24,608 nucleotides of DNA from positions 1 through 24,608 of IMG/VR virus record IMGVR_UViG_3300046524_000341; one strand, given 5' to 3'. A program made the position numbers and the translations under genes. The notes under the pieces are model-generated. The model ran no database searches, was not told the DNA's origin, and saw only the letters and a program-made list of their open reading frames with translations. Position 1 is the stretch's first letter. Each line of letters begins with the position of its first letter. The DNA is from a virus. This document shows positions 3,793-21,057 of the stretch, piece by piece.

Positions 3793-3845
3793 CGACGCCA
3801 AAGTCATGTCCTGCCGTTTGCTCGAATTGGAATGAGAAATAGATC

Positions 3846-10201: not shown

Positions 10202-10872
10202 CAGAGGCGAGCCAGGGCACGGCCGAACGCCACGTCGGCGTCATACACCCGCTTGGAACGGACGGGCGTCTGACGGTCTCCCCAGGCCGCTACAGCCTCA
10301 TCGAGATCGTCGTACATTGCCTGCACGTCGCCATCGTTGTGGATGATGAAGTCCGGATTGAGCCGATCGGTGCGCTCGGAGTCGTGGACGCCCCAGTAGA
10401 GCCCCAGCTTATCGAACAGGAACTCGCCGAACTTGCCCCACTTGAACTTCGCCGGCCGTGTACCCGGGCGCTTGATCAGGATGGTGAAGCCCTTGAGCGA
10501 CCGGATCGCAGCTTCCTCGTTCGGGAATCGCACGCTGTCGTTCATGACGTTGTCGTTCGGGCCGACGCCGCGCGCCCAGGTGTTCGCCCACAGGTCCGGG
10601 TTGATTAGCTCGCGGCCCCACTCGGTGCCGATCGTGATCTGGGCATAGCGGGACGTGACCCCGAGTTCGGGGATCAGGCTCTCCTTCAGATCGCCGGTCA
10701 GATACCGGGTGATCATGTCGGACGACATGCCGTTGGCCTGCAGCAGCGCCGCGAGCATGGCACGCAGCGGCTCGGCGATGTGCTTGCGCTCGAAGCTGTA
10801 CTTTTTTTCGAGGTAAAGGGCGGCGGTAGTCTTGCCGGCCTGGGCGAACCCAGACAATCCGATGGCGCTCAT
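10201..10872 (-). CDS. deoxynucleoside monophosphate kinase
   Basis: The 223-aa product has a Walker A loop GFAQAGKTT at residues 8-16 and a phage dNMP-kinase layout: a HIAEPLRAMLAALL helix, TEWGRELINPDLWANTW around residue 90-105, a VNDVR-like 'MNDSVRFPNE' segment near 110-120, and IIHNDGD near 178-184. These enzymes phosphorylate dNMPs to dNDPs for DNA synthesis, as T4 gp1 and related kinases do. I start it at the second ATG (10872), because GGAG lies nine bases before it and only three before the first ATG (10878). It complements the dCMP deaminase of the other operon but is transcribed in the leftward direction after the A1-like gene. Confidence 0.88.
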   Translation of the reverse strand: MSAIGLSGFAQAGKTTAALYLEKKYSFERKHIAEPLRAMLAALLQANGMSSDMITRYLTGDLKESLIPELGVTSRYAQITIGTEWGRELINPDLWANTWARGVGPNDNVMNDSVRFPNEEAAIRSLKGFTILIKRPGTRPAKFKWGKFGEFLFDKLGLYWGVHDSERTDRLNPDFIIHNDGDVQAMYDDLDEAVAAWGDRQTPVRSKRVYDADVAFGRALARL

Positions 10873-10915
10873 TTGCATTCTCTCCTTTTTTATTCCAATT
10901 CGATCAAGCGTTAGG

Positions 10916-12871
10916 TCACGCCGCGACCAGCTCGGGGGCTGCGAGAGCCTCCTGCGGGCACCACTTGCCGTTCTGCAGGGTGATGAGGGTCCGTTTGCCG
11001 TCTGCGTATTGCAGGATATGCGTCACGGCCCAGCCGGACGCGCCCTTGTTGTAGCCGTGGCGCAGGTTCATCGCGCCGGCCACGTACACGCCGTCGAGGA
11101 TCTCGGGGCTGTGCTTGTCGCCGATCGACATCTTGCGGCCGACTCGTGCGAAGCCGGTCACAGTCCCCTTGGCGCCGTTCGCGCCGCGGAAGCCGTGGTT
11201 GCCGACCTCGATGCCGTCGATGGTGTGGCTGTAGCCGTCCACGCACCATTCGACCCTGGTGCCCAGATCGATCTTCTTGCGGACGACATTCTCCAGCAGC
11301 GAGAAGCGCGGCACCGGCAGACCGTTGTCGAGCGCGTAGGATCGCTTTTCGACGTTCTCCAGATAGGCGTCTTCCAGCTGCAGGCCGAAGCGCACGTTGC
11401 CGCCGTCGTTGCGGTACCGGCCCTCGCGGGCGTACTTCTCCAGTGCAATGTCGTGGTTGCCCTCGGCGACGATCACCTTGCGGTCTTCGCTCGACAGCAT
11501 CGACAGGATGTGGCCGCACTGGTCGACTTCATCCTCGACGCTATCGCGACCGCGGATGGCCATCTCGTAGCTGTAGGCATTGTCGTTGACGTGGTGGTGG
11601 TTCCGCGCCTCGTTGTCGAAGATGTCGTGGACCACAACGTTCTCCGGCTTAAGCTTGTAGAACATGCTGTTCTTCTCGGTCGAGACGGCCTCCAGGTTCC
11701 ACCCGAAGGTGGCCATGGCGTTGGCAGGATCGAGCTTTCGAACGTGCAGGTCAGCAATCGTCATCGCCCGGACGCGGTGGCCGGTCGTGACTTCGCCATT
11801 GGCGACGTGGCGATCGAGGTCGTAGAAAGCGCCGTCGTCACCAGCTGTGATCTGTCGGCAGAAGACATCGCCTTCGCTGTCGAACTGGACGACGACCGCA
11901 CCGATGATCTGGTGGAAGATCGATTTCACACCTGCCTTGCGCGGGATCACCTTGGGTCTCGTGACGCAGCCCGACGTCATCACCTGATGTGCCTGTACGG
12001 CGGGATCGGTGGACGGTACGCTCTTCAGCTGGCGCTTGGCATGCGGAAACACGGCCCAGCGGCCACGCGAATACGTCACCAGATCCGAAATCGGCGCCGA
12101 CGCGGTGGGCAGGGTGTTCATCTCGCCGGCGAACATGAAGTTGTTGCCGATCTTCAGCTGGCCGAAGCACAGATGCGGGATCAGCTCCTCGGCATAGGTG
12201 CGCGCCTGCGGGTCGTTCTCAGCCCACCATTGCGTCTCATAGGTGAACGGTCCTACGATGATCTCGGCCTTGATCCAGTCGGCATAGGCCTGGAGGTTTG
12301 CCCAGAACTCCTCGTGGAGCATGGTGTCGTTCTGAGCCGACGTGAAGATGAAGTTCTTGCCGCGAGCGTCGGCGATCGGCGCGACGCGCAGCGTGTCTTT
12401 CATCCAGGTGCGGGGCTTGCCTTCCTTCTCGACGTAGCGACCGGTCTTGCTGTTCCAGGCCTGGATCGTGGGGGAGTCGATGATGACGGCTTCCGGATTG
12501 ATGACCGGGTATTTCGATTTGGTGATGAGGGTGGTCACGTCGGCCGACAGGAGTTCAGCACGCTTGAGCGTGTTGCCTTCGGTGGACATAGCTTCACCTG
12601 CCTCGACGGACCCGAGGGTCACGGTGGCGGTGGCAGCTGGCGGCACGTAGAGGGACCAGTCTACGGCGTAGTTTTCGCGACGGAGCTGCTTGAGCGCTTC
12701 CTCGTTGCGGACCCAATTGGGATAGTTGATGCCTTCGCGGCGCTCGGCCGTCTTGGTGGCGGAGGCAAGCCCGCCGGTTTCACCCTGAGGGTGGTAGCCC
12801 ATCTTCAGCAGGTCTTCGATGACTTGCTTTCTTCGGATGCGCTCTTCGGTGGGAACAGGCGGCTTGGCCAT
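10916..12871 (-). CDS. T5 A1-like protein with metallophosphoesterase-type domain
   Basis: This 651-aa protein has an N-terminal helical region (about 1-60, with KQVIEDLLKMGYHPQ and INYPNWVRN) resembling an HTH found at the start of many phage 'A1-like' or 'DNA transfer' proteins. Residues about 370-640 carry spaced metal motifs of the calcineurin-like phosphoesterase fold: DLH near 375, HDIFDN near 415, GNHD near 472, GNHG near 558 and GDKH near 584. T5 A1 is a pre-early protein needed for host DNA breakdown and second-step DNA transfer. The resemblance is at the level of layout and motifs, so a nuclease role is inference. The gene has an unusual structured leader that includes its AAGAGG binding site. 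Its order after the lysis genes is surprising for an early function. Confidence 0.7.
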   Translation of the reverse strand: MAKPPVPTEERIRRKQVIEDLLKMGYHPQGETGGLASATKTAERREGINYPNWVRNEEALKQLRRENYAVDWSLYVPPAATATVTLGSVEAGEAMSTEGNTLKRAELLSADVTTLITKSKYPVINPEAVIIDSPTIQAWNSKTGRYVEKEGKPRTWMKDTLRVAPIADARGKNFIFTSAQNDTMLHEEFWANLQAYADWIKAEIIVGPFTYETQWWAENDPQARTYAEELIPHLCFGQLKIGNNFMFAGEMNTLPTASAPISDLVTYSRGRWAVFPHAKRQLKSVPSTDPAVQAHQVMTSGCVTRPKVIPRKAGVKSIFHQIIGAVVVQFDSEGDVFCRQITAGDDGAFYDLDRHVANGEVTTGHRVRAMTIADLHVRKLDPANAMATFGWNLEAVSTEKNSMFYKLKPENVVVHDIFDNEARNHHHVNDNAYSYEMAIRGRDSVEDEVDQCGHILSMLSSEDRKVIVAEGNHDIALEKYAREGRYRNDGGNVRFGLQLEDAYLENVEKRSYALDNGLPVPRFSLLENVVRKKIDLGTRVEWCVDGYSHTIDGIEVGNHGFRGANGAKGTVTGFARVGRKMSIGDKHSPEILDGVYVAGAMNLRHGYNKGASGWAVTHILQYADGKRTLITLQNGKWCPQEALAAPELVAA

Positions 12872-12982
12872 GGAACCTCTTGATGGCGGGGCTTTTGAGC
12901 CCGGGATACTGCCCCTCGACTACCACAGAATTTGCATTAGTGCAAATTCGAACGGCAAAACGAGGGGCAGAATCAAGAGGTT
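12872..12982 (-). promoter_or_regulatory. structured mRNA leader with nested inverted repeats
   Basis: This is the only non-coding gap longer than 100 bases in the leftward half. Read along the leftward message it holds four pairings. Helix a joins 12982-12972 with 12884-12874 (11 perfect pairs). Helix b joins 12970-12961 with 12918-12909 (10 perfect pairs). Helix c joins 12949-12941 with 12936-12928 (9 perfect pairs, loop of four). Helix d joins 12902-12898 with 12893-12889 (5 pairs, loop of four). Helices b and d would sit inside helix a, giving a multi-branched fold. The 3' strand of helix a contains AAGAGG, the likely ribosome binding site four bases before the ATG of the A1-like gene. 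The 5' strand begins inside the stop codon of the 56-aa gene, so ribosomes ending there would open helix a. The pairings are seen; the regulatory role is inferred. Confidence 0.65.
12928..12949. repeat. 22-bp palindrome, possible operator
   Basis: Arms GAATTTGCA and TGCAAATTC are perfectly complementary around TTAG. As DNA it looks like a dimeric regulator site in AT-rich sequence that stands out from the GC-rich surroundings. The 12-base word TGCAAATTCGAA at 12941-12952 is repeated at 2126-2137, and TGCATTAGTGC (12933-12943) recurs on the minus strand at 1936-1946 near the start of the membrane protein gene. It also forms the central helix of the RNA leader. Confidence 0.6.
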
Positions 12983-13151
12983 ACGGCTTTCGGACGGGCG
13001 TGATGGCGTGCAGGAACTCAGTCTGGTTCTGCTCGATGCGACCAAGCCGTTCGATGACGTTGAGGCCCCGATCTCGGACACCCAAGGTGAGGAAAATATC
13101 GATCAACACCAAAAAAGTGAGCACAATGAATGAGGCTGTTGCGTTCTTCAT
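12981..13151 (-). CDS. 56-aa single-pass membrane protein of the lysis cassette
   Basis: This short frame reads from an ATG at 13151, six bases after the stop of the preceding leftward gene, to a TAA at 12983-12981. The product starts MKNATASFIVL and has one hydrophobic segment at residues 7-24, then a charged, probably helical tail with ERLGRIEQNQTEF. That layout fits small holin-like or antiholin-like proteins and other single-pass phage membrane proteins. Tight spacing to the lysis genes supports a real gene. There is no strong ribosome binding site, so it probably depends on coupling to the upstream gene. Its stop codon lies at the 5' edge of the structured leader of the A1-like gene, which may tie the two together. 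Confidence 0.65.
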   Translation of the reverse strand: MKNATASFIVLTFLVLIDIFLTLGVRDRGLNVIERLGRIEQNQTEFLHAITPVRKP

Positions 13152-17265: not shown

Positions 17266-20200
17266 TCAAACCATCTCGTGTTCGACGTCGTGGGTGCGCC
17301 AGTTCATCGATTCCGAAACACGGCGCTGGACCAGCGTCGCGAGAGACTCGGGATCGTGGTTGCTGCCGTTGATGTGGATCGCCACCTGGCCGGAGTTACC
17401 TCCGCCCAAATCAGCGCGCGTCTGTTCCGGTCCCCGATCGGGGACGCTCTTGATGGCTTCCTTGCCGGATGGCGGAACGCCGCCGATCATGTTCGGATTG
17501 TCCTTCCAAGGCTTCTTGCCCATCCACTCGAAGTGCATAGCGTCCTTGGTCGACTTCCAATCACCACCCCAGGACAAACCGTATTTCGCCGCCATGTCCC
17601 GCACGTTGGGAGGCATGTCGGTGATGAGCTTTCCAGTCATCGGGTTTTTGTCGGGGTTGATGTCAATCGCGTTGCCGTAGGCATGCTGCGACCAGCCACC
17701 CCCGCCGCGCTTGCCTCTCATACTGAAGCCGCCGAGCGAGTTGATTTTGTATCCGGAGCCCTCCAGCTCATCCACGAAGCCCTTGAAGGACTCCGCAGCG
17801 GCCGAGTTCACAGTCATCTTCTTTCCGGAGGCAGTCGTGATAGTCGTCTGGTTTTCACCAGGCGCCCCATACTGCCCCTTCATGAAGTTTGCACCGCCAC
17901 GAACGCCAAGCTGGTCAGCGAGACCGTTCGGTGCAGATCCACCAACGGCGGAGCTTCCTCCACCTAGTTGACCCATGAAGCCCTGAACACCACCAAGCCA
18001 GTTCTTGTTCAAGCCGCGGGGATCGTTGGCCGCTCCCTGCGGAGCGTAGATCCCTGCCATCGAACTCAGGTTACCGCCTGCGCGGTTCCAGTTCTTTGCG
18101 ACGGTGCTTGCGGTCGAGTTGATGCCTTCAGCGAGGCTGCCGAACTGCTTTTTCTTGGACCAGTTCGTGGCAGGATCCATGATCCCGCCGGGGTTGTTGC
18201 CGCTAAGTGCCGACCCCTTGCCGCTCTCGTGGGCCATGATGCCGGCCAGGAGCGCCGGGTCGATGTTGTTCGTCTTCGCAGCATCGACGACCTGGTCGTA
18301 CATGCCAGCCATCGGCGTTCCGGCGAAGATCTTCTCGTAGGCCCCCTTATTCATGGAGCCAGAGAGAGCCGTGCCGACATCGTTGCCGCCTCCGATGATG
18401 CCGCGCGAACCCATGCCGAAGTTCGGCAGCTTGCCTCCTGGCGTGCTGGTGAACAGGTCGGTCGGGCTCGGGCTTCCGCTGGACGCGACGGTAGTGTCTC
18501 CACCTCCGCCTCCACCACCTCCTCCGCCGCGCCGAGACGCGGAGAAGTCCGTGATGCCGCCCTTGGACGACGTGAGCGATGCAAGCATCACCTGGCCGCC
18601 GTATTTCTTGAAAGATCCGTTCAGATCTTCCAGCTCCTGCCGGAGACCGGCGGTTTGCAGGAGATCCTTGTTGTTGCCCTCGAAGGCGACCTTCTTGAAG
18701 GCCTTGCCGGCTTCAGTGCCGTTTTCGATGAAGCTCTGCTTCTGCGCCTTGGGCTGCTCGTCCACACCGTAGCGCTTCTTCAGCTCGTCAGACGACGTGA
18801 AGAGATCCTTCATCTTCTGCCAGGTGCTGCGATCCTGCAGCTTCTTGCCCATCTCAGGGTTCGATCCCGGCAGCCAAGAGAACAAAACGTCCATCAGCTT
18901 TTCGCCGAAGAGCGTTGCGATCCCGATGATCACGCCGCGGCCGAGGGCACGCGACAGGTTCTTCGCCATCGACGTAGTGACCTCAGCCATCGCGTCTTTA
19001 GACGCCCAGCTGAAGAGGCCCTTGATCCCTGCGAAGATCAGGCCCATGCCGACGAACAGCTCTTTCAGGACGATAAAGATGCCGATGACCGGCCGCAACA
19101 TCATCAGAGCGATGGAGAAGCCGATCAGCTCCGCCGTAAATTTACCCAGGCCTTCGAGGCCGGGGCCGAAACCAAACAGGCTCGCAGCCGTGGATAGGAC
19201 TCCGCCGACCGTGTTAGCAACGACCTTGATGCCTTCAGCAAAGCCCTTTGCAAACGCAAAGAACTTGTCCGGATTAAGCTTGGACTCGCCAGGATTTCCG
19301 AACACCGATGCGAACATCTCGCGCCAGCTGGAAAAGCCCAGACCTTCGCGGACGCCATCCAGCGCTCGCTTGATTGCAGACTTCAGATTTTCCTTGTCGA
19401 ATTGAGCAAAGAAGTCCTTGAAGAAGTCGGTAAAGTCGATGAACAGCTCATCGAAGCCCTCGCCGATCGAGGACCAGAACAGCGACAGCGCAGACTTGAA
19501 CGACTTCCACTTGCCGTTGAGGCTCGTGAGCCGCTTGACCGAAGCCTCGTCGAGGAAGTTTGCGTTCTTCGGATCATTGATCGCTTCGAGGATCTGCTTG
19601 AGCTTGCCGCGTTCCTGAACCAGGATGGCCAGCTCGTCGCGCCATTCCCGCATGCCCAGGAGGTTCATCGCCTCAGCACGCTTGCCCTCCGGCATCTTTG
19701 CGAGCCGTTCGAGGATGGTCTGGATGGTCTTGGTCGGGTCAGCAGTGGCCTGTGCCGCGAGGCTGGCCTTGCCGCCGAAACCGAGCATGGAAGAGAACTT
19801 GCCCAGGTCTTTTCCGCGCTGGCCGCGGGTCTTGCCCGCGTTCACCAGGTCGTTGACCAGGAAGCCCATGAAGGTGCCGGATTTGCCGGACTGCATACCG
19901 CCGGAGATGTTGGCCGCGTTGAACGCGCTCAGCTGCTCCATGGTCATCTTGGACGTCGCGAGGACGCCCGTGCCGCGGCGGTTGGCCGCGACGATTTCGT
20001 TGCCGTCTGCCGCCGAGTCGCGGTTGGCGACGCCGATGGCGTTCAGCATCGACTTGATGCGCTTCGGATCGACTTCTTTGATGTCGTTGAACAGCGACGC
20101 TGCGCGGCCGACCAGCTTCGTGGTCTCTTCCGGACTGATGTCCAGACCGGTTGCGGACTTCAGGATCTGATCCGTGATTTCCTTGGTGTTGGTGGTGATG

Positions 20201-21057
20201 CCGGCCTTGAGGGACTCGGTGTAGGCGTCCAGTGCCTGGCTAGGCGAGATGCCGTATTTCACAGCAGCGTTGTCGCCGAATTCGCCGCGCACCTTGCGAG
20301 CGTCTTCCTTGCTCAGACCGCCGAACATCTGCAGGTTTGTCTCTGCGGTGTCGATCTGCATGCGCTGGCTGATGGCAGACTGCGCCGCCCGGCCGCCGGC
20401 TGCGGCAGCTCCGAGGCCTGTATAGGCGATCGAGCTGGACCCAGCGATGCCGTTCATCATCCGGCCAGGGATCTGAGAGGCTCGGCGCCAGGCGCCACGA
20501 ACACTCCGATGATGGGCGGCGAGGTTTCGTTCGCTCTCCCGGTGTGTCCGCTTCTCCTCGTTTATGCGGTCCGTGTCGGCCGCGTAGATGATCCGGCTCC
20601 AGAGATCCTGATGCTTGCGCTCGCCCTTTCGGACGTCTTCGTGCATCTGGTTGTGGATCGAGGCGTAGCCCTGAGCGTATCGGTACGTCTCAGCCAGCTG
20701 CGCGGAGAGAGCGGCCTTCTGGGTCTTGTTGCCCTTCTTGTAGGCCTTCTCCATCTTCTGGATGTCGTCTACGAGGTTCTCGTAGTAGGCCATGGACATC
20801 GTCCCGGCCGCACGCATCGCCTTGGCGTCGCGCGTGTATTTGTCGGTCAGACCATCCAGAGAATGGCCGTGCGCCTTGAGGGCGGCTGCAGTCTTCGGGT
20901 CGAGGAGGCCACCCTTGAGCGGCTGAGAAGCGACATCCGTCAGCTTCTTCATCTCGGCTTCGAGCTGCTTCACCTGCGCGAGGAGGCGCTTGATAACGGG
21001 AGACGCACTGTCCGCGTCCGCGGTTATCCTAATCCTTTGTTCTAGCTCGTCACTCAC
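17266..21057 (-). CDS. T: tape measure protein with two cell-wall hydrolase domains
   Basis: At 1263 aa this is the largest gene and the tail length ruler. Its order after E/E' matches P2 gpT (815 aa). Residues 1-600 are mostly helical with coiled coils (SPVIKRLLAQVKQLEAEMKK near 18-37). Hydrophobic stretches at about 640-680 and 705-725 could enter the host membrane at DNA injection. A run of ten glycines near 846 forms a linker. Residues about 910-1030 look lysozyme-like (DPALLAGIMAHESGKGS, with a Glu after H, and NPGGIMDP). Residues about 1070-1185 look like an M15 D,D-carboxypeptidase-type peptidase: SQHAYGNAIDIN gives the first His and the Asp, HFEW the later His. The two domains would open the host wall during entry. 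The start lies 18 bases after a strong terminator. Confidence 0.9.
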   Translation of the reverse strand: MSDELEQRIRITADADSASPVIKRLLAQVKQLEAEMKKLTDVASQPLKGGLLDPKTAAALKAHGHSLDGLTDKYTRDAKAMRAAGTMSMAYYENLVDDIQKMEKAYKKGNKTQKAALSAQLAETYRYAQGYASIHNQMHEDVRKGERKHQDLWSRIIYAADTDRINEEKRTHRESERNLAAHHRSVRGAWRRASQIPGRMMNGIAGSSSIAYTGLGAAAAGGRAAQSAISQRMQIDTAETNLQMFGGLSKEDARKVRGEFGDNAAVKYGISPSQALDAYTESLKAGITTNTKEITDQILKSATGLDISPEETTKLVGRAASLFNDIKEVDPKRIKSMLNAIGVANRDSAADGNEIVAANRRGTGVLATSKMTMEQLSAFNAANISGGMQSGKSGTFMGFLVNDLVNAGKTRGQRGKDLGKFSSMLGFGGKASLAAQATADPTKTIQTILERLAKMPEGKRAEAMNLLGMREWRDELAILVQERGKLKQILEAINDPKNANFLDEASVKRLTSLNGKWKSFKSALSLFWSSIGEGFDELFIDFTDFFKDFFAQFDKENLKSAIKRALDGVREGLGFSSWREMFASVFGNPGESKLNPDKFFAFAKGFAEGIKVVANTVGGVLSTAASLFGFGPGLEGLGKFTAELIGFSIALMMLRPVIGIFIVLKELFVGMGLIFAGIKGLFSWASKDAMAEVTTSMAKNLSRALGRGVIIGIATLFGEKLMDVLFSWLPGSNPEMGKKLQDRSTWQKMKDLFTSSDELKKRYGVDEQPKAQKQSFIENGTEAGKAFKKVAFEGNNKDLLQTAGLRQELEDLNGSFKKYGGQVMLASLTSSKGGITDFSASRRGGGGGGGGGGDTTVASSGSPSPTDLFTSTPGGKLPNFGMGSRGIIGGGNDVGTALSGSMNKGAYEKIFAGTPMAGMYDQVVDAAKTNNIDPALLAGIMAHESGKGSALSGNNPGGIMDPATNWSKKKQFGSLAEGINSTASTVAKNWNRAGGNLSSMAGIYAPQGAANDPRGLNKNWLGGVQGFMGQLGGGSSAVGGSAPNGLADQLGVRGGANFMKGQYGAPGENQTTITTASGKKMTVNSAAAESFKGFVDELEGSGYKINSLGGFSMRGKRGGGGWSQHAYGNAIDINPDKNPMTGKLITDMPPNVRDMAAKYGLSWGGDWKSTKDAMHFEWMGKKPWKDNPNMIGGVPPSGKEAIKSVPDRGPEQTRADLGGGNSGQVAIHINGSNHDPESLATLVQRRVSESMNWRTHDVEHEMV

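Follow-up and report, generated by a model that had tools for sequence, protein, structure and literature searches.

The leader of an A1-like gene in the window, by which we mean the whole stretch of DNA analyzed, a 24.6-kb IMG/VR record of a virus of bacteria, folds into a stable branched structure that masks the ribosome site of this gene, and a promoter-like array conserved among A1 leaders lies inside the same structure. When the RNA was truncated to the form expected from this array, the computed mask was relieved. The best account of these results, and one that we regard as fairly probable, is that the origin of the transcript selects the messages from which the A1-like protein is translated.

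Genes Around the Leader

The A1-like gene and the last open reading frame (ORF) before it are located as follows:

10916–12871, minus strand: A1-like gene, 651 aa, matching PHROG 1745 'DNA transfer protein' (E 2.5e-162)
12981–13151, minus strand: 56-aa ORF with a hydrophobic N-terminus, stop codon TAA at 12983–12981

Relatives are annotated as 'A1 protein' or as T5 A1-like. Upstream on the same strand, the gene is preceded by a muramidase-type endolysin, a match to an Rz-like spanin, a 109-aa ORF and the 56-aa ORF, for which no match was found in PHROG or Pfam. Also encoded on the minus strand is a 1263-aa tail protein (17266–21057), which is tape-measure-like in part and carries a Peptidase_M15_4 domain at its C-terminus. 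An open frame of 683 aa on the plus strand (10832–12883) is antisense to nearly all of the A1 gene and is probably a shadow frame of the high-GC coding sequence. A search for tRNA-like elements found none.

Fold of the A1 Leader and Masking of the Ribosome Site

Folded at equilibrium, with neither ribosomes nor co-transcriptional effects taken into account, as in all calculations reported here, minus-strand RNA 13000–12860 (141 nt) had a minimum free energy (MFE) of −64.2 kcal/mol. Dinucleotide shuffles of the same stretch yielded −36.5 ± 3.3 kcal/mol (z = −8.3), and none of the 200 was as stable. The MFE and centroid structures agreed with each other, and both contained all four pairings that an initial annotation of this DNA had described. 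The helices were recovered by an inverted-repeat search as well, the 5′ arm of the outer helix being repeat I3. The elements of the fold are the following:

12972–12987, minus strand: 5′ arm of the outer helix, 11 bp (12982–12972) plus five pairs of 12987–12983 with the start-codon region; fold and inverted repeat
12909–12970, minus strand: second arm, with 10 bp (12970–12961/12918–12909), 6 bp (12958–12953/12925–12920) and 9 bp (12949–12941/12936–12928); fold
12889–12902, minus strand: small 5-bp hairpin (12902–12898/12893–12889), retained in promoter-initiated RNA; fold
12867–12884, minus strand: 3′ arm of the outer helix, covering AAGAGG (12881–12876) and pairing the ATG (12871–12869) of the A1-like gene

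Two helices had been missed by the initial annotation, together with the promoter inside the structure (12945–12917) that is described below. One is the 6-bp helix, which continues the second arm, and the other is the pairing of 12987–12983 with 12871–12867, by which the A1 start codon is also paired. The sequence AAGAGG (SD), four bases 5′ of the start codon, is held in the outer helix, as had been claimed. The mask in the window is a branched structure of 100 nt in which SD and AUG are surrounded by 16 pairs.

The cost of opening SD in read-through RNA was 11.5 kcal/mol when the RNA was folded from 13000, ranging from 10.9 to 12.2 kcal/mol across folded lengths, and the cost of opening SD plus AUG was 16.3 kcal/mol. 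After shuffling of the upstream sequence, SD opening required 2.5 ± 1.7 or 1.9 ± 1.0 kcal/mol in two shuffle sets; when the 80 nt before the start were shuffled and the rest was kept, the mean was 1.9 kcal/mol and none of 100 shuffles equaled the observed cost. For comparison, the median opening cost at other gene starts was 2.6 kcal/mol in the window and 4.0 kcal/mol in two relatives. The leader helices are firmly established as real, and the mask they form is strong.

A Promoter-like Array Inside the Fold

A predicted promoter is enclosed by the second arm. The array TTTGCW-N12-TRTGNTA was present with identical spacing in 22 of 22 A1 leaders matched, comprising the window and homologues approximately 70–85% identical in A1, and additionally in L151; since TRTGNTA was demanded by the search script, the unforced part of this result is the invariant TTTGC and the spacing. 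One more leader, L016, matches the array but for one base. From its sequence, the array looks like a promoter with a −35 element TTGCW, a 17-bp spacer and an extended −10 element TRTGN-TA. In the window, the following elements were assigned:

12955–12962, minus strand: CGTTTTGC, resembling the CGTTTGC half-site that precedes the dyad in most of the homologous leaders
12931–12946, minus strand: dyad TTTGCACTAATGCAAA, a copy of a motif recurring across related phage genomes, the first half of which is the −35 element TTGCAC (12945–12940)
12945–12917, minus strand: predicted promoter, with −35 TTGCAC at 12945–12940 and a 17-bp spacer; comparative
12917–12927, minus strand: predicted extended −10 element, TGTGG (12927–12923) plus TAGTCG (12922–12917), at a fixed distance of 12 nt from TTTGCW
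12910–12915, minus strand: predicted transcription start, from the promoter geometry

The half-site upstream of the dyad is set off by about 10 bp of extra spacing in L098, L104 and L108. An earlier placement of the −10 element, with TRTGST as the hexamer and a start at 12915, was rejected in favor of the extended −10 plus TAnnnn, with 17-bp spacing and a start near 12910; both placements led to the same result for the window. A plain sigma-70 promoter scan of the window leader found no promoter, and the predicted −10 hexamer TAGTCG agrees with TATAAT only in its first two bases. On comparison of the leaders, the embedded promoter is a comparatively well supported candidate with a poor −10 hexamer.

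The exact pattern TTTGCANGAATGCAAANNNTGTGCTA was found in only 14 stretches among 2.9 million viral contigs, all of them upstream of A1 genes. Thirteen of these are A1 leaders of the set, and the fourteenth is L151, where the array lies approximately 30 nt before a small operon consisting of a BTLCP-type peptidase gene and then an A1 gene. Because the A1 gene directly follows the BTLCP gene, this array is not independent evidence from another gene. The promoter in L151 is separated from A1 by one gene, and the leader after it is ordinary (about 25 nt with SD), from which it follows that the conserved element is a promoter-like DNA array and not an RNA structure. The array is likewise common to A1 leaders whose helices differ greatly. 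The intervening BTLCP (Peptidase_C93) gene (L151:73–660) has a signal-peptide-like start.

In promoter RNA of the window, with any start from 12919 to 12907, the SD opening cost was 0.6–0.9 kcal/mol (0.7 typical). Weak pairing of the AUG persisted in this RNA, the opening of SD and AUG together costing 5 kcal/mol. In the initial annotation, a start of transcription downstream of 12972 had been named as an observation against its reading. Judging from the promoter-like sequence, one class of transcripts probably does start there, while the read-through class would still be masked; with the start predicted at 12915–12910, the consequence is a changed mechanism.

Proposed Mechanism

We propose that the promoter is flanked by the two arms of the RNA helix that masks both the ribosome site and the start codon of A1. 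Messages reading through from the upstream tail and lysis genes would hold both arms, and A1 would be translated poorly from them. Messages from the embedded promoter would start near 12915–12910 and would be devoid of the 5′ arms, leaving SD open. Synthesis of the A1-like protein would then be confined to periods when this promoter is active, which a dyad-binding protein may control, and A1 would thereby be insulated from lysis-operon read-through. If A1 is early as in T5, the masked transcripts would be the late ones. For this scheme, we infer that the promoter is active and suitably timed, that transcription reads through into the leader, and that the dyad is the binding site of a regulator.

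Masks and Terminators in Related Leaders

Among the 22 A1 leaders, the outer helix was common only to the window and L014, and it was not found in the leaders whose A1 proteins are most similar to that of the window, L015 (85%) and L009 (79%). The arms of L014 (ACCTCTGAGT/ACTCAGAGGT) and those of the window (ACCTCTTGAT/ATCAAGAGGT) differ at three positions that are changed on both sides, with pairing kept. Covariation in homologues, which the initial annotation had expected of its helices, thus extends to three compensatory pairs in one leader, and the outer helix as a conserved RNA family was rejected. L014 is also the second strongest case of relief, with an SD opening cost of 12.6 kcal/mol in read-through RNA (reached in 0 of 100 shuffles) versus about 4 kcal/mol in promoter RNA.

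A different fold was observed in L011, L001, L013, L019, L018 and L097, in which SD is masked in read-through RNA by the combination of pairings 1:2 and 3:4. Pairing 1:2 is a strong hairpin starting at the −10 element, and 3:4 holds SD. In the predicted promoter RNA of this type, part of segment 1 is gone, 2:3 can form and SD is partly freed, the opening cost being 2–5 kcal/mol compared with 6–10 kcal/mol in read-through RNA. Transcription of L011/L001-type leaders would start inside segment 1 of a four-segment leader, and the promoter RNA would form an anti-mask hairpin. Doubly changed pairs were present in the alignment for both forms, 1:2 plus 3:4 and 2:3, although their counts are not independent because segments 2 and 3 serve both forms.

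Relief was also computed for L098, from 9.5 kcal/mol in read-through RNA to 2.5 kcal/mol in promoter RNA, and for L010 it depends on the assumed start. Among the relatives, the outer helix itself recurred only in L014, with analogous relief in L098, L001, L011, L013, L018, L019 and L097 and no such arrangement in others, some of which have terminator-like hairpins in its place. In 5 of the 22 leaders (L100, L106, L012, L017 and L096), promoter RNA also has a masked SD, and one uniform rule for all A1 leaders is not supported. In L104, L105, L107, L108 and L127, SD is weakly masked in both RNA classes.

The read-through cost varied with the gap after the upstream gene. The 13 leaders with a short gap showed high costs (5.8–12.9 kcal/mol), and the nine with a long gap mostly low ones (2.3–5.8 kcal/mol, with one of 9.5). 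The Mann–Whitney test gave p = 0.0006 for all leaders and p = 0.006 for 13 clade representatives, values which overstate independence since the leaders are related. Several long-gap leaders have terminator-like hairpins, for which the short gaps are too short. A textbook terminator, with a GC stem and a T-run (GCCCCTAGACTGC...GCAGTCTAGGGGC TCTTTTTTT), separates the lysis genes from the A1 promoter in L105 and L127, lying approximately 120–160 nt before the A1 ATG in L105 and likewise in L127. Judging from the modeled folds, insulation of A1 in other homologues seems to come either from another type of refolding leader or from terminator-like hairpins further upstream.

In more distant or sister-clade A1 leaders, no convincing long-range mask was found (L147 was borderline, 1 of 40 shuffles). 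The sole sister-clade A1 leader with a clear sigma-70 promoter was L126, which carries a sigma-70-like TTGACT-N19-TATAAT about 63 nt before the A1 ATG (0 of 60 shuffles) and, after it, another dyad, AAGTCAGAACTGACTT.

A wider and more tentative proposal, which we rate as possible but still doubtful, is that the A1 genes of this phage group share one conserved promoter around which a family of RNA switches has been built, each programmed by the transcription start. The switch would operate by arm loss in the window, L014 and L098 and by anti-mask refolding in L011, L001 and their relatives, with terminators replacing it in others. If such a family exists, the insulation of A1 from lysis read-through would be a selected function that has been reached repeatedly by different structures.

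Alternative Explanations

The initial annotation had predicted a translation-coupled or a ligand- or temperature-sensitive switch, a reading that our results bear out only in part. Under translational coupling, ribosomes ending the 56-aa ORF would open the outer helix, and A1 would be translated in step with the lysis cassette. The geometry on which this relied was borne out, as the 5′ arm overlaps the stop codon of the ORF (TAA, 12983–12981) and its 11-bp strand begins inside it at 12982. Opening by a terminating ribosome is also physically possible: with the RNA covered to 12975, 12970 or 12967, the SD opening cost dropped from 11.5 to 0.7 kcal/mol, and in L014 just 6 nt separate the upstream stop from the arm. 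Nevertheless, we consider coupling unlikely. The A1 start lies approximately 110 nt downstream of the stop, so constant ribosome traffic would be needed, and the 56-aa ORF is without a family match. In L011-type leaders, the upstream stop is about 35–40 nt before the masking hairpins, past the reach of a terminating ribosome, and yet SD is masked. Coupling also leaves unexplained the conserved promoter array inside the structure.

Less probable again is that the inverted repeats act mainly on DNA, as an operator, a site of regulator binding or a mobile-element scar, and that the RNA mask is incidental. Part of the structure does have a DNA character. The palindrome TTTGCACTAATGCAAA belongs to the 16-bp motif YTTGCWYGAATGCAAA, for which 36–46 loose matches were counted in each of four relatives of 100–127 kb and 14 in a fifth, compared with 0–2 for the reversed control. 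Allowing at most one mismatch, there were 96 sites in the five genomes, many of them directly before a ribosome site and start codon, and the upstream half-site recurs as well. Repeated across these genomes in this way, the motif is probably a regulatory DNA site. Since the dyad reads in this way, helix 12949–12941/12936–12928 is no evidence for a purpose-built RNA; the inner 9-bp pairing that the initial annotation had counted among the leader elements is present, but it is a copy of the recurrent dyad and not RNA-specific. The outer arms, in contrast, are outside the repeated motif and include SD, and L014 has compensated arms in their place. A mobile-element scar was rejected, as no target duplication flanks the arms and the region has one copy in the contig.

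Copies of YTTGCWYGAATGCAAA in related phage genomes (L071–L095, e.g., W01:27087 and G002:11962) number dozens per genome and have TG at −10/−9 and C at −7 of the motif. The spacing of TGYC-N7-TTGCW equals that of the sigma-54 −24/−12 elements, but GG is absent. At 3817 on the plus strand of the window, there is a degenerate motif copy with TGTC at −10 (ATGTCCTGCCG TTTGCTCGAATTGGAA).

It is very unlikely that the hairpins form an intrinsic terminator ending the lysis operon. Their location between the lysis genes and A1 would suit this function, and several homologues carry terminator-like hairpins in the same gap; in the window, however, no T-run follows any stem, and the terminator scan was negative.

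The least probable reading is a ligand-sensing riboswitch or RNA thermometer governing A1 translation, both of which the initial annotation had allowed for and to which the multi-branched leader with its masked ribosome site would be suited: no Rfam family matched at the gathering score (the best was a chance miRNA match with 20.6 bits against a cut-off of 90), no aptamer-like core is conserved, the conserved part being a DNA-like dyad and −10 array while the multi-branched shape and helices vary between phages, and the opening cost is nearly flat with temperature (12.1, 11.5, 11.1 and 10.7 kcal/mol at 30, 37, 42 and 45 °C, respectively).

Comparison with Known Systems

For T4 genes e, soc, 49, I-TevI and segB and for mobE of Aeh1, upstream-initiated RNA masks SD/AUG, and an embedded late promoter yields RNA without the 5′ strand of the mask, in which SD is unmasked (PMC3014915, PMC2988022). 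The geometry predicted in the window is the same. As computed, SD and AUG are sequestered in the longer transcript of the window, and SD is free in the promoter transcript with predicted starts at 12919–12907, as in the T4 gene e type. The window differs from T4 in its gene, which is A1-like and concerned with DNA transfer, in its promoter, which would consist of the dyad and an extended −10 element and not of TATAAATA, and in its mask, which is branched. Because read-through in the window would come from lysis and tail genes, the presumed temporal order is reversed relative to T4. By this analogy, the masking logic is one known from T4, while the A1 gene, the promoter type and the branched mask would be new. 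If the proposal is true, a trick of the T4 lysozyme type arose in an unrelated phage group and is interchangeable with terminators, and the promoter and dyad motif could be used for annotating regulation in these phages.

A likeness to attenuators was found in the L011-type homologues, which, like attenuator-type four-segment leaders, form either 1:2 plus 3:4, with SD masked, or 2:3, with SD freer. Their choice would be set by the transcription start and not by a stalled ribosome or a ligand, and the output would be translation and not termination. The window itself is without such a four-segment form.

The A1 protein of phage T5 belongs by name to the same protein family (PHROG 1745 DNA transfer protein), and a deoxynucleotide monophosphate kinase-like gene near A1 in L001 is a further point of likeness to T5. 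T5 A1 is a pre-early gene, and T5-like A1 proteins are early, host-attacking DNA-transfer factors, whereas A1 in the window stands directly after the lysis genes. We know of no mask over the ribosome binding site of T5 A1, and start-selected masking of this kind is, to our knowledge, undescribed for A1 genes. Likewise, we know of no account of how large alphaproteobacterial phages keep A1 expression separate from their late programme. In G001, a contig of 127,632 bases, copies of the dyad motif occur in pairs 117,311 bases apart (4400/121711 and 5871/123182), which suggests a terminal repeat of approximately 10.3 kb like that of T5-like phages; A1 would lie just within this repeat.
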